Source: Labilibaculum euxinicum (GTDB taxonomy: Bacteria; Bacteroidota; Bacteroidia; Bacteroidales; Marinifilaceae). Taken from it: a stretch of DNA of 64,000 bases. The stretch covers positions 62,001 to 126,000 of the forward strand of contig NZ_WTCR01000014.1 of the NCBI RefSeq assembly GCF_009795715.1. The letters run 5' to 3'. Both the position numbers and the translations under genes were made by a program. Under the pieces are notes generated by a model that saw only the letters and a program-made list of their open reading frames with translations, was not told the DNA's origin and made no database searches. Each line of letters begins with the position of its first letter. The first letter of the stretch is position 1. Below are positions 30,801 through 39,426 of this stretch, piece by piece.

Positions 30801-31631
30801 TTATTTGTAAGCCTCAATGGCCTTTTTTACTGAACCATGTTTTAACAGTAAGCTTTTAGCAACTTCTTTTTCAAGTTTTAATTCTTCCATAATCATTTTG
30901 GTTCCTCGTTCAACCAACTTTTTGTTGGTTAACTGCATGTTTACCATTCTATTGCCCTGAACTCTTCCCAATTTAATCATTAAGCTGGTGGTGATCATGT
31001 TTAGAATCATTTTTTGAGCAGTTCCGGCTTTTAATCTGGTACTTCCGGTAACAAATTCGGGGCCAACAATTGCTTCAATCACAATTTCAGCTTCTTTGGA
31101 AACTGGCGCCTCAGGATTACAAGTAATACATGCGGTAAGCAGACTATTTTCGCGGGCTTTTTTTATGCCGCCTATTACATAAGGTGTTGTGCCTGAAGCG
31201 GCAATTCCTAATACCGTATCATTTTGATTAAAACCATGTTCCTGTATTTCTTCCCAGGCTTTGTTCCAATCATCTTCGGCCGATTCAACGGCATTTCGTA
31301 AGGCCTTTTCTCCTCCTGCAATCAATCCAATTACAATATTATCCGGAACTCCAAAAGTTGGCGGTAATTCCGAAGCATCCAATACGCCAAGTCGGCCACT
31401 TGTGCCAGCTCCAATATAAAATAATCTACCTCCGGCTTTAACACGGTCAACAAGTAGGGAAACAAATTTCTCGATTTCTGGAATCGCGCGATTTACTGCT
31501 AAATGAACTTGTCCGTCTTCCTGATTAATTCCAATAAGTAGTTCATTAACCGACATCTTTTCCAAATTAGAAAAGTTAGAAGGTGATTCTGTTATTTTGT
31601 TTGAAGTTTTCTGGTTACCTGCTTTATTCAT
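30801..31631 (-). CDS. murQ: N-acetylmuramic acid 6-phosphate etherase
   Basis: A 276-aa SIS-fold enzyme that cleaves the lactyl ether of MurNAc-6-P to give GlcNAc-6-P and lactate. Motifs are ITESPSNFSNLEKMSV, IGAGTSGRLGVLDASELPPTFG (phosphosugar site and catalytic Glu), IAASGTTPYVIGG, and GPEFVTGSTRLKAGTAQKM. The ATG at 31631 is chosen over a TTG at 31652 that would overlap the kinase stop. It follows the kinase gene by 10 nt. It acts in the cytoplasm as the second step of MurNAc use. Confidence 0.96.
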   Translation of the reverse strand: MNKAGNQKTSNKITESPSNFSNLEKMSVNELLIGINQEDGQVHLAVNRAIPEIEKFVSLLVDRVKAGGRLFYIGAGTSGRLGVLDASELPPTFGVPDNIVIGLIAGGEKALRNAVESAEDDWNKAWEEIQEHGFNQNDTVLGIAASGTTPYVIGGIKKARENSLLTACITCNPEAPVSKEAEIVIEAIVGPEFVTGSTRLKAGTAQKMILNMITTSLMIKLGRVQGNRMVNMQLTNKKLVERGTKMIMEELKLEKEVAKSLLLKHGSVKKAIEAYK

Positions 31632-31641
31632 TATTTTGTTT

Positions 31642-32472
31642 TTATTTACCAAGATGGTACTGAATCAATCCTTCCAATGGGCTTTGCTCAATTTTTCCAA
31701 GATGTAAACCGATCTTGGCTGCGACCATTTCCAATTCTTTTTTAAAGTAGTATGCAATACTTCCTATAAAATGAATTGGCAGGCTGATGTGATTGTTGTA
31801 TTGTTTTATATTTCTTTCGAAAAATTCCCCGAAGCTCTTCTTTACAAGCTCCGATATATATGGTGATTGAATGTTTTCAGAAAGAAAGACTGTAAATTGA
31901 GCAAGAAAACGGCTGGGCGCTTCCTCTTTGTATACTTTGTTTATAATATCTGCATATTCCAAATTGTATTTCTGATAGAATGCACTTTTTATTTCAACAG
32001 GAGCAATATTTTTAAGAATATCAGCCAGCAATTTTTTACCCATAACAGCTCCGCTGCCTTCGTCACCCAATATGTATCCCAAGGGAGGAACGTTGTGTTC
32101 AATGTTTTCCCCATCATATAAGCAGGAATTAGATCCTGTTCCAATGATGCACGCTATGCCTTTTTCTCTTCTGCAAACCGATCGGGCTGCAGCTAAAACA
32201 TCGCTGTTAATTTCGCAATTTGCATCAGGAAAAATTTGTAGTAAGGAATCTTTAATGATTTTCTTCTTCTCATCAACAGCACAACCGGCGCCGTAAAAAA
32301 AGATTTGGGTAACCGAACCAAAATCATCAAGTGAGCTAATTATTTTAATTATCGAACTCGTATTTTGATGGTATGGGTTAATTCCCAAAGTCTGTTGGCG
32401 TTTAGTTACGCCTTTACTTCCGAGAAGAACCCAGTCGGTTTTGGTTGATCCGCTCTCTGCAATTAATATCAT
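31642..32472 (-). CDS. murK: BadF/BadG-type MurNAc/GlcNAc kinase
   Basis: A 276-aa ASKHA-fold sugar kinase. LIAESGSTKTDW is the phosphate-1 loop, FYGAGC and CIIGTGSNSCLYDG are phosphate-2 and adenosine regions, and LGYILGDEGSGAVMG is the sugar-binding motif of N-acetylhexosamine kinases. It is the first gene of the operon with murQ, the same pairing as murK-murQ in Tannerella, so MurNAc is the likely substrate, possibly with GlcNAc. An operator-like repeat lies 15 nt upstream of its start. Confidence 0.88.
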   Translation of the reverse strand: MILIAESGSTKTDWVLLGSKGVTKRQQTLGINPYHQNTSSIIKIISSLDDFGSVTQIFFYGAGCAVDEKKKIIKDSLLQIFPDANCEINSDVLAAARSVCRREKGIACIIGTGSNSCLYDGENIEHNVPPLGYILGDEGSGAVMGKKLLADILKNIAPVEIKSAFYQKYNLEYADIINKVYKEEAPSRFLAQFTVFLSENIQSPYISELVKKSFGEFFERNIKQYNNHISLPIHFIGSIAYYFKKELEMVAAKIGLHLGKIEQSPLEGLIQYHLGK

Positions 32473-32741: not shown

Positions 32742-34724
32742 ATGGAGAATCAGATACTGCAATTTAGGGAAGAGCTTGATGAAGCCAAGTTGTATTACCA
32801 ACCTTCAGATGAGTTCGACAGAACAGTGAAAACCCGGTATGAGAAAATGCCGGCAGATATTTTTTCAACTGCTGAAAAGGCAGCCAAGTGGGTTGCAGGT
32901 GAAATTGCAAATGAAATTAAGCAAAAACAAAAGCTTGGCGAAATGTGTGTTGTAGGATTAGCTACCGGTGCAACGCCATTGGGAGTGTATTCCGAACTGA
33001 TTCGTTTGCACAAAGAAGAAGGCTTGTCATTTCTGAATGTGGTTACTTTTAATTTGGATGAGTATTATCCGATGTTGAAATTAAGCGCGCAAAGCTATAA
33101 TCATTACATGAACGACGTTTTATTTAATCATATCGATATTCCTAAAAATCAAATTCATGTACCAAATGGTGAGGTAAGCAAGGTCACAATTACCGGATAC
33201 TGCAATGAGTATGAAAGACTGATTGATTCTTTTGGGGGATTGGATTTGCAAATACTTGGAATTGGTCGTACAGGGCACATTGGGTTTAATGAACCAGGTT
33301 CGCAACTGGATTCGATAACCCGATTGATTATGCTTGACTCTTTGACCAGACGAGATGCTGCCAAAGATTTTAATGGCTTAAATAATGTACCTAAGGCGGC
33401 TATAACAATGGGTGTTGGAACCATATTTAAAGCCAAAAGGGTTATTTTAATGGCTTGGGGCGAAGGAAAAGCGGCGATTGTAAAAAAAGCATTGGAAGAA
33501 AGTCAGTGTGATGCAGTTCCAGCCAGCTATTTGCAACGGCATACTGATGTGAAATTTGTATTGGATGTGCCGGCTGCAAGTGAATTGTCAAGGGTAAAGA
33601 ATCCTTGGCTGGTTGGGAGTATTGAATGGGATCGTTATTGGATTCGGAAAGCGGCAGTTTGGTTGTGTAATAAATTACAAAAACCAATTTTAAAACTGAC
33701 TAATCGTGATTATAATGATAATGGATTGAGTGAGTTACTTGCTTTGTATGGCTCGGCTTACGAGGTAAATATTAAGGTGTTTAATGATTTGCAGCACACC
33801 ATAACCGGTTGGCCTGGAGGAAAGCCAAATGCTGATGATTCTCATCGTCCGGAGAGAGCAGAACCGGCAAGTAAAAGAGTTTTGGTTTTTAGTCCGCACC
33901 CTGATGATGATGTAATTTCGATGGGAGGAACTTTGAAACGATTGGTGGATCAAAACCATGAAGTTCATGTTGCATACCAAACTTCAGGAAATATTGCGGT
34001 TGCCGATGATGAGGCGGTGAGATATCTTTCTTTTGTAAAAAGTTTTTCGAGAACTCATGATACAAACGAGGGCAATCTTCAGTGTGTGATTGAAGACATT
34101 CAAAAATTTCTTTTGGAAAATAAAAAGCCGGGAGGAATGGATACAGCTGAAGTGCGCAATATGAAAGCCTTAATCAGGAGAGGAGAGGCAAAAGCTGCCT
34201 GCCGTTTTGTAGGTATTCGATCTAAGAACCTTCATTTTTTGGATCTTCCTTTTTATGAAACGGGTACGGTTAAGAAAAATCCGTTGGGGAAAGAAGATGT
34301 TCGTATTCTTGTGAATTTGCTTCGAAAAATAAAGCCGCATCAGATATTTGCTGCAGGGGATTGGTCTGATCCTCATGGAACGCACCGGGTATGTTGGGAA
34401 GGAATTTACCAGGCATTAAAAATAGTGAAAGATGAAGAGTGGATGAAGGATTGCTATATATGGTTATACCGTGGAGCTTGGCAGGAGTGGGATTTGGACG
34501 AAATCCAAATGGCTGTTCCGGTTAGTCCTGAAGAATTACAACATAAACGGAATGCAATATTACGACATCAATCGCAAATGGAAAGTGCTCCCTTTATGGG
34601 GAATGATTCCCGCTTATTCTGGCAAAGATCAGAAGAAAGAAATAGGGCTACAGCCGATTTATTTAACAAATTGGGCTTGGCAGAATACGAGGCAATTGAA
34701 GCTTTTGTCAGGTTTATTGTTTAG
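32742..34724 (+). CDS. NagB-like domain fused to a PIG-L/LmbE deacetylase
   Basis: A 660-aa cytoplasmic fusion. Residues 1-300 form a glucosamine-6-phosphate deaminase-like domain (GLATGATPLGVYSEL, NLDEYYPM with D106, GIGRTGHIGFNEPGS with H179 and E184). Residues 380-660 form a PIG-L deacetylase (SPHPDDD with H386/D388/D389, and DPHGTHR). The second domain could remove the acetyl group from GlcNAc-6-P in place of NagA, feeding the first, which would yield fructose 6-P. The NagB base Asp141 position is Thr177, so deamination may be altered. An operator-like site lies upstream. Confidence 0.9.
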   Translation: MENQILQFREELDEAKLYYQPSDEFDRTVKTRYEKMPADIFSTAEKAAKWVAGEIANEIKQKQKLGEMCVVGLATGATPLGVYSELIRLHKEEGLSFLNVVTFNLDEYYPMLKLSAQSYNHYMNDVLFNHIDIPKNQIHVPNGEVSKVTITGYCNEYERLIDSFGGLDLQILGIGRTGHIGFNEPGSQLDSITRLIMLDSLTRRDAAKDFNGLNNVPKAAITMGVGTIFKAKRVILMAWGEGKAAIVKKALEESQCDAVPASYLQRHTDVKFVLDVPAASELSRVKNPWLVGSIEWDRYWIRKAAVWLCNKLQKPILKLTNRDYNDNGLSELLALYGSAYEVNIKVFNDLQHTITGWPGGKPNADDSHRPERAEPASKRVLVFSPHPDDDVISMGGTLKRLVDQNHEVHVAYQTSGNIAVADDEAVRYLSFVKSFSRTHDTNEGNLQCVIEDIQKFLLENKKPGGMDTAEVRNMKALIRRGEAKAACRFVGIRSKNLHFLDLPFYETGTVKKNPLGKEDVRILVNLLRKIKPHQIFAAGDWSDPHGTHRVCWEGIYQALKIVKDEEWMKDCYIWLYRGAWQEWDLDEIQMAVPVSPEELQHKRNAILRHQSQMESAPFMGNDSRLFWQRSEERNRATADLFNKLGLAEYEAIEAFVRFIV

Positions 34725-34800: not shown

Positions 34801-37800
34801 ATGATTTCCATGTCTGGATTTTTTATAAATATCCGTTTTCTTAGAATGCTTTGTGTAATCTCTGTATTGTTGTTCTCAAATTTTAATTTGATAGCTGCTA
34901 AGAAATCGGACCGACTAACTCGAAAAGCCGATAAAGCGGCACAATTTTTTGTTGAGCAAGCTTCCAAAGATTTTGTTTTCACATTTAAGTACGATAGTTT
35001 ACAAATAGATTCAGAGCAAGAAGAAATTACATTGTATATGAATCCGGTGTTTTCGTATGTTCCGTTTCGTCCGGAGTCTGTACAGATATATAAGAAAGAT
35101 TTCAAGGAAGATTTGGGTCGGAGATTTAAAAACTATTCCATCCGAATGGAAAGTATGGGACAGGAAATAAGTGATTTAATCCCTAATTTCTATCGGAATG
35201 GAATTGTTGAGGCGGATACAAATCGTTTGAATAAGAATCATGAAGTAACGCAAGCTTTGGTGCGAAGAGTAAACACAGGGAACGATGCAAAACTTGGATT
35301 GGAAAATAAACACATTGCTTTGTGGCATTCTCATGGATGGTACTATGAAAACACGCTGGACAGATGGGAATGGCAGCGGGCAAGAGTGTACACAACAGTG
35401 GAAGATTTGTGGACCATGGAGTTTGTAGTACCATATATTGCTCCTATGCTCGAAAAGGCTGGTGCTAATGTATTGTTTCCTCGCGAAAGAGATGTTCAGA
35501 AAAATGAAGTGATAGTAGATGCTGATTGGTCATCGGAAGGATCGGAATATCTTGCAGATGATTCCGTTTGGGAATTGAATTCTCAAGCGGGTTTCGCAAA
35601 CAAATATCCCTTTTATATTGAAGGAGAAAATCCATTTGAACTGGGAAGCAGCTATCAGACTGAGGCAGGTACTGACGTATCCGCTAAAGTGCAGTACATT
35701 CCTTGTTTTCCTGAAAAAGGAGAATATGCAGTGTCTGTTTCCTATTCTGATGATGAGGATAATGTGAATGATGCGCACTATACCGTGTATCATGCAGGAG
35801 GTAAAACTGAATTTTTGGTGAATCAAAGCATGGGTGGTAAAACCTGGATTTATTTGGGGACTTTTCTTTTTGATAAAGGGAGGAATCCCGAAAAGGGAAT
35901 GGTTGAACTGACTAACGAAAGTAAGGAGCCTGGAAAATGGATTTCGGCTGATGCAATACGATTTGGCGGAGGAATGGGAAACATTGCCCGTGGGAATCCT
36001 GAAGAATTGGATGAATTGAAAAAGCAAAGAACAGAGCTTGGTTTTAAATTGGACTCCTGTGTTTGGCAAAAATATACGAGTAATCGGCCAAGATATCAGG
36101 AGGCTGCACGTTACTATCTTCAGTATGCAGGCATGCCCGATTCGTTGGTGTACAGCATCAATAAAGATTACGAAGCAGATTACAGCAATCGGGGAAAAGA
36201 TGCGGCCAAGTTTCGGAAAAAGGAAATTGGCAAAACCGATTACAAGGATGATTACATGAGTCGCGGAGAGTGGGTGGATTATTTGATTGGAAGTCCGGCG
36301 GGTCCAACAAAAAATCCAACGGTAAAGGGATTAAGGATACCTGTTGATATGGCTCTGGCATTTCATACCGATGCCGGTTTTACGCCAAATGATTCCATTA
36401 TTGGAAGTTTGGCTATTTACTCTACAACAAGAGATGAGGATTATTTTCCAAACGGACAATCGAAATGGGCAAGTCGCGATTTAACGGATATTATTCAGTC
36501 GCAGGTTGTGCAGGATATTCGCAAAAAGTATGAACCTAAATGGACGCGCAGGGGGATGTGGAACAAGCAATACTCAGAAGCGTACCGTCCAAAAGTTCCT
36601 ACCATGTTGTCTGAATTGTTATCGCACCATAATTTTGCAGATATGTATCAGGGAATGGATCCGAAGTTTAAATTCGATATCAGCAGAGCTTATTACAAAG
36701 GGATTTTAAAGTTTCTGTCATCTCAGGATGGAAGGGATTATGTGGTGCAGCCTTTGCCGGTTGATCATTTTCAAATCAGGGAAACTGAAAAAGGAATTGT
36801 TCTTTCATGGAAACCAGTAATAGACCAATTGGAGCCTAAGGCAGTTTCTGAATCATACAAAGTTTACACAAGAATTGAAGATGGTGGGTTTGATAACGGA
36901 ATAGTTGTCCCCAATTCAGAATACATTATTACGAATTGCAAACCGGGTGTGATTTACAGTTTTAAGGTAACTGCTTTGAATAATGGCGGAGAAAGTTTTG
37001 ATTCGGAAATATTAGCCTATTGCAAATCAGGAAATGGAAAAAAGCCTGTTTTAATTGTAAATGGATTTGATCGTATTTCGGCTCCTCAGGGATTTGATGA
37101 TGGGAAGTTTGCCGGTTTCGTAGGTTCGGAAGATGAGGGTGTCGCATACAAAAGAAATATTGCCTATGTAGGTGATCAGTACGATTTCGATCGAAAATCG
37201 CAATGGTTGGATGATGATGCATCGGGCCATGGAAGCTCATATGCCGATCAGGAAGAACGAATCATTCCGGGTAATAGTTTCGATTATCCGTTTGTGCACG
37301 GACAAGCAGTTCGGGATAATGGTTTTGGGTTTGTGTCGATGAGTGATGAGGCCTTTGAGGAATTGAATTGGGCGGCGCAGGATTATTCTGTGTTGGATTT
37401 AATTTTTGGAGAGGAAAAAACGACCAAAAGAATTTACGGCAAAGAGAATAAAGATTTTACAATTTACACGCCTGAAATGAGAGAGGCGATTCGTAAGTAT
37501 CTAAAAGGGAATAATGCAAAATTAATTATTTCCGGAGCTTATGTGGGAACAGATTTGGAATTGTGTGGCGATACTTTGGCAAAATCTTTTGCGGAGGATG
37601 AATTGCATTATCAGTTCAGAACCAATCATGCAAGCAAATTGGGCAACGTATCGCATACAAACGAAGTGAGAAATAATTTTAAAGGAGAATATCAATTCGA
37701 AACAGGATATTCCCCCGATATATATAAGGTTGAAGCACCCGATGCGATTGAACCTAAAGGGGAAGATGCAAAGGTTCTTCTTCGTTATTCAGGAAATAAT

Positions 37801-37929
37801 AAAAGTGCCGGTGTAGTGTATGATGGAAACTATCAATCTGTAATTTTAGGATTTCCATTTGAAACACTGGAAACGAAAGAGTATCGCATTGAATTGATGA
37901 AACAGATGTTTCAATTTTTTAATCAGTAA
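34801..37929 (+). CDS. Secreted zinc amidase (Amidase_3-like) with embedded golvesin-like domain
   Basis: A 1042-aa protein with an N-terminal signal (cleavage near LIAA, about 34). Zinc amidase motifs are split: HIALWHSHGWYYE (H176/H178), then FHTDAGF (H522) and TMLSELLSHHNFADM (E605). Between the first two lies a golvesin/xanthan-lyase-like beta domain (about 240-400, AKVQYIPCFPEKGEYAVSV). A fibronectin III-like domain follows (about 655-740). The last 300 residues are unassigned. It likely cleaves N-acetylmuramoyl-L-alanine bonds in the periplasm or outside. Context in the locus supports peptidoglycan as substrate. Confidence 0.82.
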   Translation: MISMSGFFINIRFLRMLCVISVLLFSNFNLIAAKKSDRLTRKADKAAQFFVEQASKDFVFTFKYDSLQIDSEQEEITLYMNPVFSYVPFRPESVQIYKKDFKEDLGRRFKNYSIRMESMGQEISDLIPNFYRNGIVEADTNRLNKNHEVTQALVRRVNTGNDAKLGLENKHIALWHSHGWYYENTLDRWEWQRARVYTTVEDLWTMEFVVPYIAPMLEKAGANVLFPRERDVQKNEVIVDADWSSEGSEYLADDSVWELNSQAGFANKYPFYIEGENPFELGSSYQTEAGTDVSAKVQYIPCFPEKGEYAVSVSYSDDEDNVNDAHYTVYHAGGKTEFLVNQSMGGKTWIYLGTFLFDKGRNPEKGMVELTNESKEPGKWISADAIRFGGGMGNIARGNPEELDELKKQRTELGFKLDSCVWQKYTSNRPRYQEAARYYLQYAGMPDSLVYSINKDYEADYSNRGKDAAKFRKKEIGKTDYKDDYMSRGEWVDYLIGSPAGPTKNPTVKGLRIPVDMALAFHTDAGFTPNDSIIGSLAIYSTTRDEDYFPNGQSKWASRDLTDIIQSQVVQDIRKKYEPKWTRRGMWNKQYSEAYRPKVPTMLSELLSHHNFADMYQGMDPKFKFDISRAYYKGILKFLSSQDGRDYVVQPLPVDHFQIRETEKGIVLSWKPVIDQLEPKAVSESYKVYTRIEDGGFDNGIVVPNSEYIITNCKPGVIYSFKVTALNNGGESFDSEILAYCKSGNGKKPVLIVNGFDRISAPQGFDDGKFAGFVGSEDEGVAYKRNIAYVGDQYDFDRKSQWLDDDASGHGSSYADQEERIIPGNSFDYPFVHGQAVRDNGFGFVSMSDEAFEELNWAAQDYSVLDLIFGEEKTTKRIYGKENKDFTIYTPEMREAIRKYLKGNNAKLIISGAYVGTDLELCGDTLAKSFAEDELHYQFRTNHASKLGNVSHTNEVRNNFKGEYQFETGYSPDIYKVEAPDAIEPKGEDAKVLLRYSGNNKSAGVVYDGNYQSVILGFPFETLETKEYRIELMKQMFQFFNQ

Positions 37930-37956: not shown

Positions 37957-39426
37957 ATGAACGAAAAGGTGACATGTTTTATTCCTTTTGGAACAAAGGA
38001 AGAGACCGAAATAACAATCAATGAGCTGATAAAATCAGATTTGACAGCTGCGATTTATGTGGTAGGCGGAGATGCAGAACTAGATGCTGAAGGTGTTACT
38101 GTTTTAACATCGGAAACCTTATCGCACGGAAAAACGATTCATGCAATTGCTGAGAAAACAGATTCTGAATATGTTTTCATCTATACAAAAACAAGTGCCT
38201 TAACTTTGGGTCAATTGGCTTTGGATCGGTTTATGAAAGTAGCCAAGGATACAAATAGTGGTTTGGTGTATTCAAATTATCGTGCCATTAAAGATGGTGT
38301 GGTTGAAAATTGTCCGGTAATCGATTATCAGGAAGGAAGTTTGAGAGATGATTTTAATTTTGGATCGGTTCTTTTTTACGATGCGAAAGTGTTAAAAGAA
38401 GCCGTGAAAGATGTTGATACTTCTTTTCGTCATGCAGGATTGTATGAATTGCGTTTGGCAATGGCTGCCCGTTCTGAATTCATGAGAATTCCGGAAATAT
38501 TGTACACCGAAGAAGAAATGGATACAAGAAAATCGGGAGAGAAAATTTTTGATTACGTTGATCCTAAGAATCGTGCCGTACAAATTGAAATGGAGATTGC
38601 CTGCACCGAGCATCTGAAGAGAATCGGAGCTTTTTTAGCGCCAAAATTTGACGATGTTGCCTTTGATGAAGGTAATTTTAAAGTGGAAGCTTCTGTTGTG
38701 ATTCCGGTTCGTGATCGTGTAAAAACCATCGAGGATGCGATTAAATCGGTATTGGCTCAAAAGGCGGATGTGGCTTTCAATTTGATTGTTGTTGACAATT
38801 ATTCTACAGATGGAACGACTGAAATTATTCAGAAATATGCTGCTGTGGACAATCGGATCATTCACATTATTCCGGAACGAAAAGATTTGGGAATCGGCGG
38901 TTGCTGGAATGAGGCAGTAGCTCACGAGTCTTGCGGTAAATTTGCCATTCAGTTGGATAGTGATGATTTATATGCCGATGAAACCACTGTGCAGAAAGTT
39001 GTAGATGCATTTTACAGTCAAAACTGTGCTATGGTTGTAGGAACTTATCAGATGGTAAATTTTGCATTGGAAGAAATTCCTCCGGGAATTATTGATCACA
39101 AAGAGTGGACTCCGGAAAACGGAAGAAACAATGCGCTTCGTATTAATGGATTGGGAGCTCCCCGTGCATTCTATACTCCGGTATTGCGAAGGAATCCAAT
39201 TCCAAATGTAAATTACGGTGAGGATTATGCTTTAGGATTAGCAATTTCGCGTAATTATCAGATTGGTAGAATTTACGATCCAATTTATTTGTGTCGTCGG
39301 TGGGATGATAATTCGGATGCATCTTTGGATATTGAAAAAATGAATACTCACAATACGTACAAAGATCGTATTCGTACCATCGAATTGAAGGCTAGAAAAC
39401 TGTTGTGTAAAAAATACATGATTTAG
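37957..39426 (+). CDS. Tandem family 2 glycosyltransferase
   Basis: A 489-aa soluble protein with two GT-A-like halves. The N-terminal half (1-225, VTCFIPFGTKEETEITINEL) keeps the fold but shows no DxD. The C-terminal half (235-489) has ASVVIPVRDRVKTIEDAI, VVDNYSTDGT, QLDSDDLYAD with the DxD, and GEDYALGLA. No signal peptide or membrane segment, so it works in the cytoplasm. Its acceptor and donor are unknown. A transferase inside a catabolic locus is unexpected. It follows the amidase gene by 27 nt. Confidence 0.85.
   Translation: MNEKVTCFIPFGTKEETEITINELIKSDLTAAIYVVGGDAELDAEGVTVLTSETLSHGKTIHAIAEKTDSEYVFIYTKTSALTLGQLALDRFMKVAKDTNSGLVYSNYRAIKDGVVENCPVIDYQEGSLRDDFNFGSVLFYDAKVLKEAVKDVDTSFRHAGLYELRLAMAARSEFMRIPEILYTEEEMDTRKSGEKIFDYVDPKNRAVQIEMEIACTEHLKRIGAFLAPKFDDVAFDEGNFKVEASVVIPVRDRVKTIEDAIKSVLAQKADVAFNLIVVDNYSTDGTTEIIQKYAAVDNRIIHIIPERKDLGIGGCWNEAVAHESCGKFAIQLDSDDLYADETTVQKVVDAFYSQNCAMVVGTYQMVNFALEEIPPGIIDHKEWTPENGRNNALRINGLGAPRAFYTPVLRRNPIPNVNYGEDYALGLAISRNYQIGRIYDPIYLCRRWDDNSDASLDIEKMNTHNTYKDRIRTIELKARKLLCKKYMI

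Follow-up and report, generated by a model that had tools for sequence, protein, structure and literature searches.

The window analysed here is a stretch of 64,000 nucleotides from contig NZ_WTCR01000014.1 of Labilibaculum euxinicum, and it carries a gene in which a NagB-type deaminase fold is joined to a PIG-L-type deacetylase fold. The questions raised by this locus are which reactions the two halves carry out, and whether the deaminase half is active with threonine at the position of Asp141 in Escherichia coli NagB.

Architecture of the fusion protein

The open reading frame at 32742–34724 (plus strand) begins with ATG and encodes a 660 aa protein composed of a NagB-fold half joined to a PIG-L/LmbE half. 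It matches the NCBIfam family NF002557 (PRK02122, "glucosamine-6-phosphate deaminase-like protein"), which has the same two halves, over its full length, with 1044.8 bits against a cut-off of 384 and an alignment running from residue 16 to 658 of the protein and from position 9 to 650 of the 653-position profile. The window protein is an ordinary member of this family, and nothing was found that sets it apart. The NagB half (residues 41–283; 32862–33590, plus strand) passes the cut-off of the nagB equivalog TIGR00502 (254 bits against 236.9) and is matched by Pfam Glucosamine_iso at residues 43–267 (69.4 bits, cut-off 27). The active-site set D72, H143 and E148 of E. coli NagB is present as D106 (codon at 33057–33059, plus strand), H179 and E184, the latter two lying with Thr177 in the loop RTGHIGFNEP (residues 176–185; 33267–33296, plus strand).

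The core of the PIG-L half covers residues 378–558 (33873–34415, plus strand), with a Pfam PIG-L (PF02585) match at residues 381–558 (73.1 bits, cut-off 28.2) and a predicted fold that continues to residue 660. The HXD1D2 plus H motif that marks the LmbE/PIG-L site (PMC4101496) is found as H386-P-D388-D389 and H548. By this motif, H386 and D389 of HPDD (33897–33908, plus strand) and H548 of HGTH (H545 to H548; 34374–34385, plus strand) would be the metal ligands, and D388 the general base. The spacer from D389 to H548 is 158 residues long, slightly beyond the range of 97–148 reported for LmbE/PIG-L proteins in PMC4101496, where it is described as variable. No signal peptide was seen by eye in the 660 aa sequence.

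The structure of the window protein was predicted with AlphaFold2 with the help of 46 named homologues. The modelled fusion (mean pLDDT 84.5, pTM 0.77) has a NagB half that superposes on B. subtilis NagB 2BKV over 242 residues (Z 37.4, rmsd 1.0), with 6-phosphogluconolactonases also among its fold relatives, and a PIG-L half that matches BshB and diacetylchitobiose deacetylases with Z of 19–21 (Foldseek was also run). The archaeal diacetylchitobiose deacetylases (3WL4, 8BGN) and BshB (6P2T, 2IXD) have the LmbE fold and the HXDD plus H site in common with the window protein, but they lack a NagB half, act on other substrates and have a shorter spacer. The closest solved protein overall is the monomeric GlcN-6-P deaminase NagB of B. 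subtilis (2BKV/2BKX; 198.4 bits), which is a single domain without a PIG-L half.

The residue at position 141

In NagB, Asp72 is the base of enolisation, while Asp141, His143 and Glu148 serve ring opening. Translated E. coli K-12 NagB reads GNDGHIAFNEPA, with D72, D141, H143 and E148, and the window protein reads LGIGRTGHIGFNEPG, in which D106 corresponds to D72, T177 to D141, H179 to H143 and E184 to E148. The open reading frame, the Pfam matches and the alignments bear out the original prediction of a fusion with Thr177 at the Asp141 site and the other three residues kept; its description of Asp141 as the base is doubtful, as that role is assigned to Asp72. The available text of PMC4281351 lists Asp141, together with Glu148, among the residues that bind the allosteric activator.

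The same position was read in 161 distinct fusions, pooled from a class sample of 197 genomes, an order sample of 198 genomes of the window's order, and 80 named loci, with paralogues included and three duplicate pairs merged. Asp occurs in none of them: the residue is Thr in 97, Asn in 27, Val in 12, Ser in 9, Ala in 4, Glu in 3, Leu in 3, Gly in 2, and Met, Arg and Gln in one each, and it is missing once. All three of D72, H143 and E148 are retained by 126 of these fusions, 34 lack one or more of them, and one has no NagB half. Most of the 126 intact fusions have Thr (94), the others Asn (27) or Ser (5). B. subtilis NagB likewise lacks the Asp, having Asn in the alignment where the window protein has Thr, and it is an active enzyme with a KM of 0.13 mM (Table 3 of PMC9812318).

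Because the intact fusions carry only Thr, Asn or Ser, and the active B. subtilis enzyme carries Asn, Thr177 is probably harmless, being a signature of the NF002557 family and no lesion. On the same evidence, the idea that loss of a catalytic Asp means a dead enzyme was rejected, and the earlier suggestion that the change from Asp to Thr signals different chemistry found no support. The loop change gives no ground to expect a new reaction, and since D106, H179 and E184 are kept, ordinary deamination is the likelier outcome; the deaminase half of the window protein is very likely active. It is highly improbable that this half catalyses a different reaction on GlcN-6-P or a similar phosphate, for example an isomerisation that releases no ammonia: the lack of Asp141 throughout the fusions and the presence of 6-phosphogluconolactonases among the fold relatives would fit such a change, but the closest solved active deaminase also does without the Asp, and the NagB half scores above the nagB equivalog cut-off.

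Separate NagB proteins were counted as open reading frames with the loop pattern in the Bacteroidota loci, leaving out E. coli and two pieces of fusions at contig ends. Position 141 is Asp in 17 of these 21, Thr in 3 and Asn in 1. In three loci (L031, L034 and L044, from genomes G117, G011 and G190), the immediate neighbour of an intact fusion is a stand-alone NagB of the Thr type, which shows that this type of domain also occurs by itself.

Genome content, neighbouring genes and the substrate of the PIG-L half

The L. euxinicum genome (5.06 Mb in 39 contigs, completeness 100) was searched for a separate nagA and a canonical nagB that could account for the flux, and neither was found above its cut-off. 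The best partial match to NagA (TIGR00221, cut-off 225.65) reached 23.3 bits, TIGR00502 at E ≤ 1e-30 matched only the fusion, and relatives of agaS and YdjC (chbG) were not detected at E ≤ 0.001. The only Pfam PIG-L match in the genome is the fusion, and Glucosamine_iso detects the fusion and one weak second locus. These results support the NagA-independent route that had been proposed from the window sequence.

Divergently upstream of the fusion gene stand a kinase gene and murQ. MurQ, the N-acetylmuramic acid 6-phosphate etherase (30801–31652, minus strand), was identified by TIGR00274 (313.9 bits, cut-off 302). The kinase (31642–32472, minus strand) is of the BadF type and of the MurK/K1058 kind: in a phmmer search against solved chains it matched 1zxo (267.5 bits) and 1zbs (252.9 bits), both uncharacterised, and the Tannerella forsythia MurK and K1058 chains (233–237 bits; chain identities from PMC10465942), whereas it matched no Pfam family and reached just 29.3 bits with NF046058, against a cut-off of 370. 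T. forsythia MurK produces MurNAc-6-P, which MurQ then converts to GlcNAc-6-P (PMC5790795). MurNAc is a poor substrate of K1058, and the authors of that work question whether it is the natural one (PMC10465942). Because the window kinase is as close to K1058 as to MurK, the name MurK for it leans on its place beside MurQ. On the other side, 76 bp downstream of the fusion, lies a gene for a Golvesin_C/fn3 protein with a sub-threshold Amidase_3 match (34801–37929, plus strand), followed by a family 2 glycosyltransferase gene (37957–39426, plus strand).

The weak second locus in the host's own genome (C38; L005:8536-10914, minus strand) encodes a diverged 792 aa NagB-fold protein that falls below the relevant cut-offs (NF002557, 190.2 bits; TIGR00502, 79.1 bits against 236.9). 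Its loop reads GPDGHIAFNTRG and shows the reciprocal change, with Asp141 and His143 kept and Glu148 lost, and there is an HHDD motif in its C-terminal part. The gene adjoins a NahK-like kinase, an MFS transporter and a phosphohexomutase-like gene, relatives of it occur in genomes G089 and G118, and its product may be another maker or user of GlcN-6-P.

The reading that we favour, and consider probable, is that the fusion is a bifunctional enzyme whose PIG-L half would convert GlcNAc-6-P to GlcN-6-P and whose NagB half would convert GlcN-6-P to fructose-6-P, replacing NagA and NagB in this organism. The net reaction proposed is that of the E. coli NagA-NagB pathway, except that an LmbE-type half and a deaminase with Thr in place of Asp141 are combined in one chain; NagA itself has a fold different from that of the LmbE-type deacetylases. 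Many bacteria divide these two steps between separate NagA and NagB enzymes. Such an enzyme would act in the cytoplasm in the salvage of amino sugars and peptidoglycan, with the adjacent MurK/K1058-type kinase and MurQ, and perhaps other sugar kinases, supplying GlcNAc-6-P. The PIG-L half would remove the acetyl group with one metal ion bound by H386, D389 and H548 and with D388 as base, and GlcN-6-P would be handed over to the NagB half, where D106, H179 and E184 would yield fructose-6-P and ammonia, Thr177 replacing Asp141 without loss of function. GlcNAc-6-P is the likely substrate of the PIG-L half, although this is less sure than the activity of the deaminase half.

The neighbours of related fusions bear on this choice of substrate. 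The 80 named loci are the best 80 of at least 584 confirmed stretches, and their neighbour families were named from representatives that were read or from similarity to genes at hand, with MurQ recognised through the window MurQ; Pfam, run on one representative each, confirmed GH20, GH3, GH18, AnmK, the APH-type kinase, GHL10 and DeoR, and HGSNAT weakly. Among these best 80 of at least 584, an amino-sugar neighbour lies within 5 kb in 33 and none was counted in 47. The neighbours comprise GH20 (10 loci), GH3 (9), MurQ (7), NagP-like MFS transporters (6), NahK-like kinases (5), GH18 (5), AnmK (4) and HGSNAT-like proteins (4), and putative SusC neighbours occur in 26 of the loci, with putative SusD also labelled. 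Of the ten GH20 cases, seven come from Flavobacterium and mostly share one layout, so that they are not independent. The seven MurQ cases correspond to a p of about 1e-9, taking one gene per 5 Mb; seven of the best 80 also means that a fusion standing always beside MurQ could be dismissed.

It is possible, although unlikely, that the NagB half is an active deaminase while the PIG-L half deacetylates something other than GlcNAc-6-P, namely free GlcNAc, diacetylchitobiose, MurNAc-6-P or a cell-wall fragment, with a kinase then making GlcN-6-P. Such a substrate would be in keeping with the GH20, GH18 and NahK-like genes just described and with the relatives of the PIG-L half, whose best solved sequence matches are the archaeal diacetylchitobiose deacetylases (3wl4, 37.3 bits); by fold, these enzymes and BshB match it equally well. 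Its fusion to an enzyme of GlcN-6-P and the neighbouring MurQ point instead to a 6-phosphate, and, of the 23 order-sample genomes whose fused NagB half is dead or missing, 22 encode a canonical NagB, so that the product still seems to be channelled to GlcN-6-P.

No biochemical study of the NF002557 family was found in the open-access literature, and the available text of PMC5127042 reports one deletion without phenotype and one failed expression for a likely member. This is Fjoh_4557, the "nagB" of the F. johnsoniae ChiUL, whose deletion, in a point against the bifunctional reading, had no effect on growth on chitin (PMC5127042; PMC7426924), a result that the authors tentatively credit to three further nagB-like genes, and whose product could not be expressed in E. 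coli (PMC5127042). In F. johnsoniae CI04 (L088), SusC, SusD, a fusion, GH20 and GH18 genes lie in a row, which suggests that Fjoh_4557 is a fusion of the NF002557 type. If the bifunctional reading is true, it corrects the plain annotation "glucosamine-6-phosphate deaminase" used in the published model of the chitin locus (PMC5127042). PMC5583593 treats the non-orthologous NagB1 and NagB2, and the term PIG-L does not occur in its available text.

It also counts against the favoured reading that the fusion and nagA do not exclude one another. In the order sample, 46 genomes have the fusion and 40 of these have no nagA above the cut-off, while six have it, and one more (G248) has a partial nagA match at a contig end. 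Among genomes of this sample with canonical nagB, nagA is found in 5 of 17 without the fusion and 5 of 25 with it (p 0.71); because nagA is equally rare in both groups, its absence alone proves nothing. In the class sample, with the fusion above cut-off in 31 of 197 genomes and nagA in 16 at E ≤ 1e-40 (15 above cut-off), nagA at E ≤ 1e-40 accompanies the fusion in 14 of 31 genomes and occurs in 2 of the 166 others (p 3e-11), so that 14 of the 16 genomes with nagA also carry the fusion; the gene immediately upstream of the fusion in B. fragilis is a nagA scoring 265.5 bits, above the cut-off. Mutual exclusion was accordingly rejected as a candidate. For the 40 order-sample fusion genomes without nagA above the cut-off, the step from GlcNAc-6-P to GlcN-6-P is without a named enzyme, a gap that the fused LmbE deacetylase, if the proposal is true, would fill. 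MurQ occurs in 183 of the 197 class genomes and therefore does not require the fusion; nagA, the fusion and other nagB matches are all uncommon in that sample.

State of the NagB half in relatives

A separate nagB of 393–441 bits, here called canonical, is present in 25 of the 46 fusion genomes of the order sample and absent from 21. D72, H143 and E148 of the fusion are intact in 20 of the 21 genomes without canonical nagB versus 3 of the 25 with it (Fisher p 1.2e-8; order sample). In the other 22 of these 25, the NagB half is degenerate or gone, and the PIG-L site is kept in all 22. For a branch of relatives, this supports the earlier suggestion that the protein's chief activity may reside in the PIG-L half. 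The one genome with a degenerate NagB half and no canonical nagB is the 1.2 Mb genome G278. In the locus L178 (G295), a 405-codon open frame contains only the linker and the PIG-L half, the NagB half is missing, and canonical nagB is present in the genome. The notion that any additional NagB frees the fused half was rejected: three loci keep an intact fusion beside a stand-alone Thr-type NagB, as described above, and two of the 21 genomes (G302 and G379) combine intact fusions with separate NagB-like genes that score lower, at 144–166 bits.

On a quick tree of the C-terminal halves, computed without bootstrap and carrying long-branch warnings for L170, L174 and L177, the degenerate state requires four changes, three of them forced by starred branches, compared with a mean of 15.7 after shuffling. 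Of the 23 degenerate rows, 20 fall in a single clade, and L177, flagged as a long branch, is one of the separate losses of the NagB half. An independent-pairs test was not significant, as of four pairs on average 2.2 went the same way, none the other way, and 1.8 were undecided. The contrast with respect to nagB is consistent, yet its independent support is small, comprising about four independent losses.

Across 17 rows of the main degenerate clade, the NagB half has evolved more quickly than the PIG-L half, with mean identities of 0.489 and 0.693, respectively; the two halves hardly differ among 19 intact rows (0.589 and 0.598). The ratio of dN between the NagB and PIG-L halves is 1.09–3.41 in five degenerate pairs and 1.04–1.59 in five intact pairs. 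Two degenerate pairs were measurable in both halves, and dN/dS of their NagB halves is 0.023 (L168/L169) and 0.081 (L033/L163); dS is saturated in the other three of the five. These values mean that the degenerate half is still constrained, and they leave the idea of drifting junk unsupported.

That degenerate NagB halves exist in 34 of the 161 fusions, and that both measurable pairs are under purifying selection, makes it conceivable that in the window protein too Thr177 has inactivated the half, which would then act as a sensor of sugar phosphates or as a scaffold for the PIG-L deacetylase. This is nevertheless quite improbable. The degenerate relatives lack at least one of D72, H143 and E148, and nearly all those in the order sample have canonical nagB, whereas the window protein keeps all three residues in a genome without canonical nagB above the cut-off, and its Thr is the commonest residue among intact fusions. 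The best reading of these sequences is that the PIG-L half represents a constant function, while the NagB half turns into a pseudo-enzyme where a canonical NagB exists. More tentatively, and with rather less confidence than for the window protein itself, the NF002557 family may be a GlcNAc-6-P deacetylase/GlcN-6-P deaminase taking the place of NagA and NagB across many Bacteroidota, in which gain of a canonical NagB would have left the NagB half as a selectively maintained pseudo-enzyme, perhaps a sensor controlling the deacetylase, with gut Bacteroides carrying this form. We take BT_0258 of B. thetaiotaomicron to be an NF002557-type fusion. BT0258-59 appear in an iron-response table as glucosamine-6-phosphate deaminase and aminohydrolase (PMC10434189). 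The combination of canonical nagB with loss of the fused active site provides a natural experiment for studying enzyme redundancy and how pseudo-enzymes arise.

In two Hymenobacter loci (L118:9910-11250 and L125:9920-11917), the fusion gene is overlapped by long open frames read on the opposite strand or in a different frame, which is probably an effect of high G+C. The PIG-L metal site is kept in 158 of the 159 fusions in which the region is present, with H545N in three, and two more fusions run off a contig end. The sole exception, L174 (G203), has lost H386, D388 and H548 and kept the NagB residues; in this single case, both nagA and canonical nagB are present in the genome.
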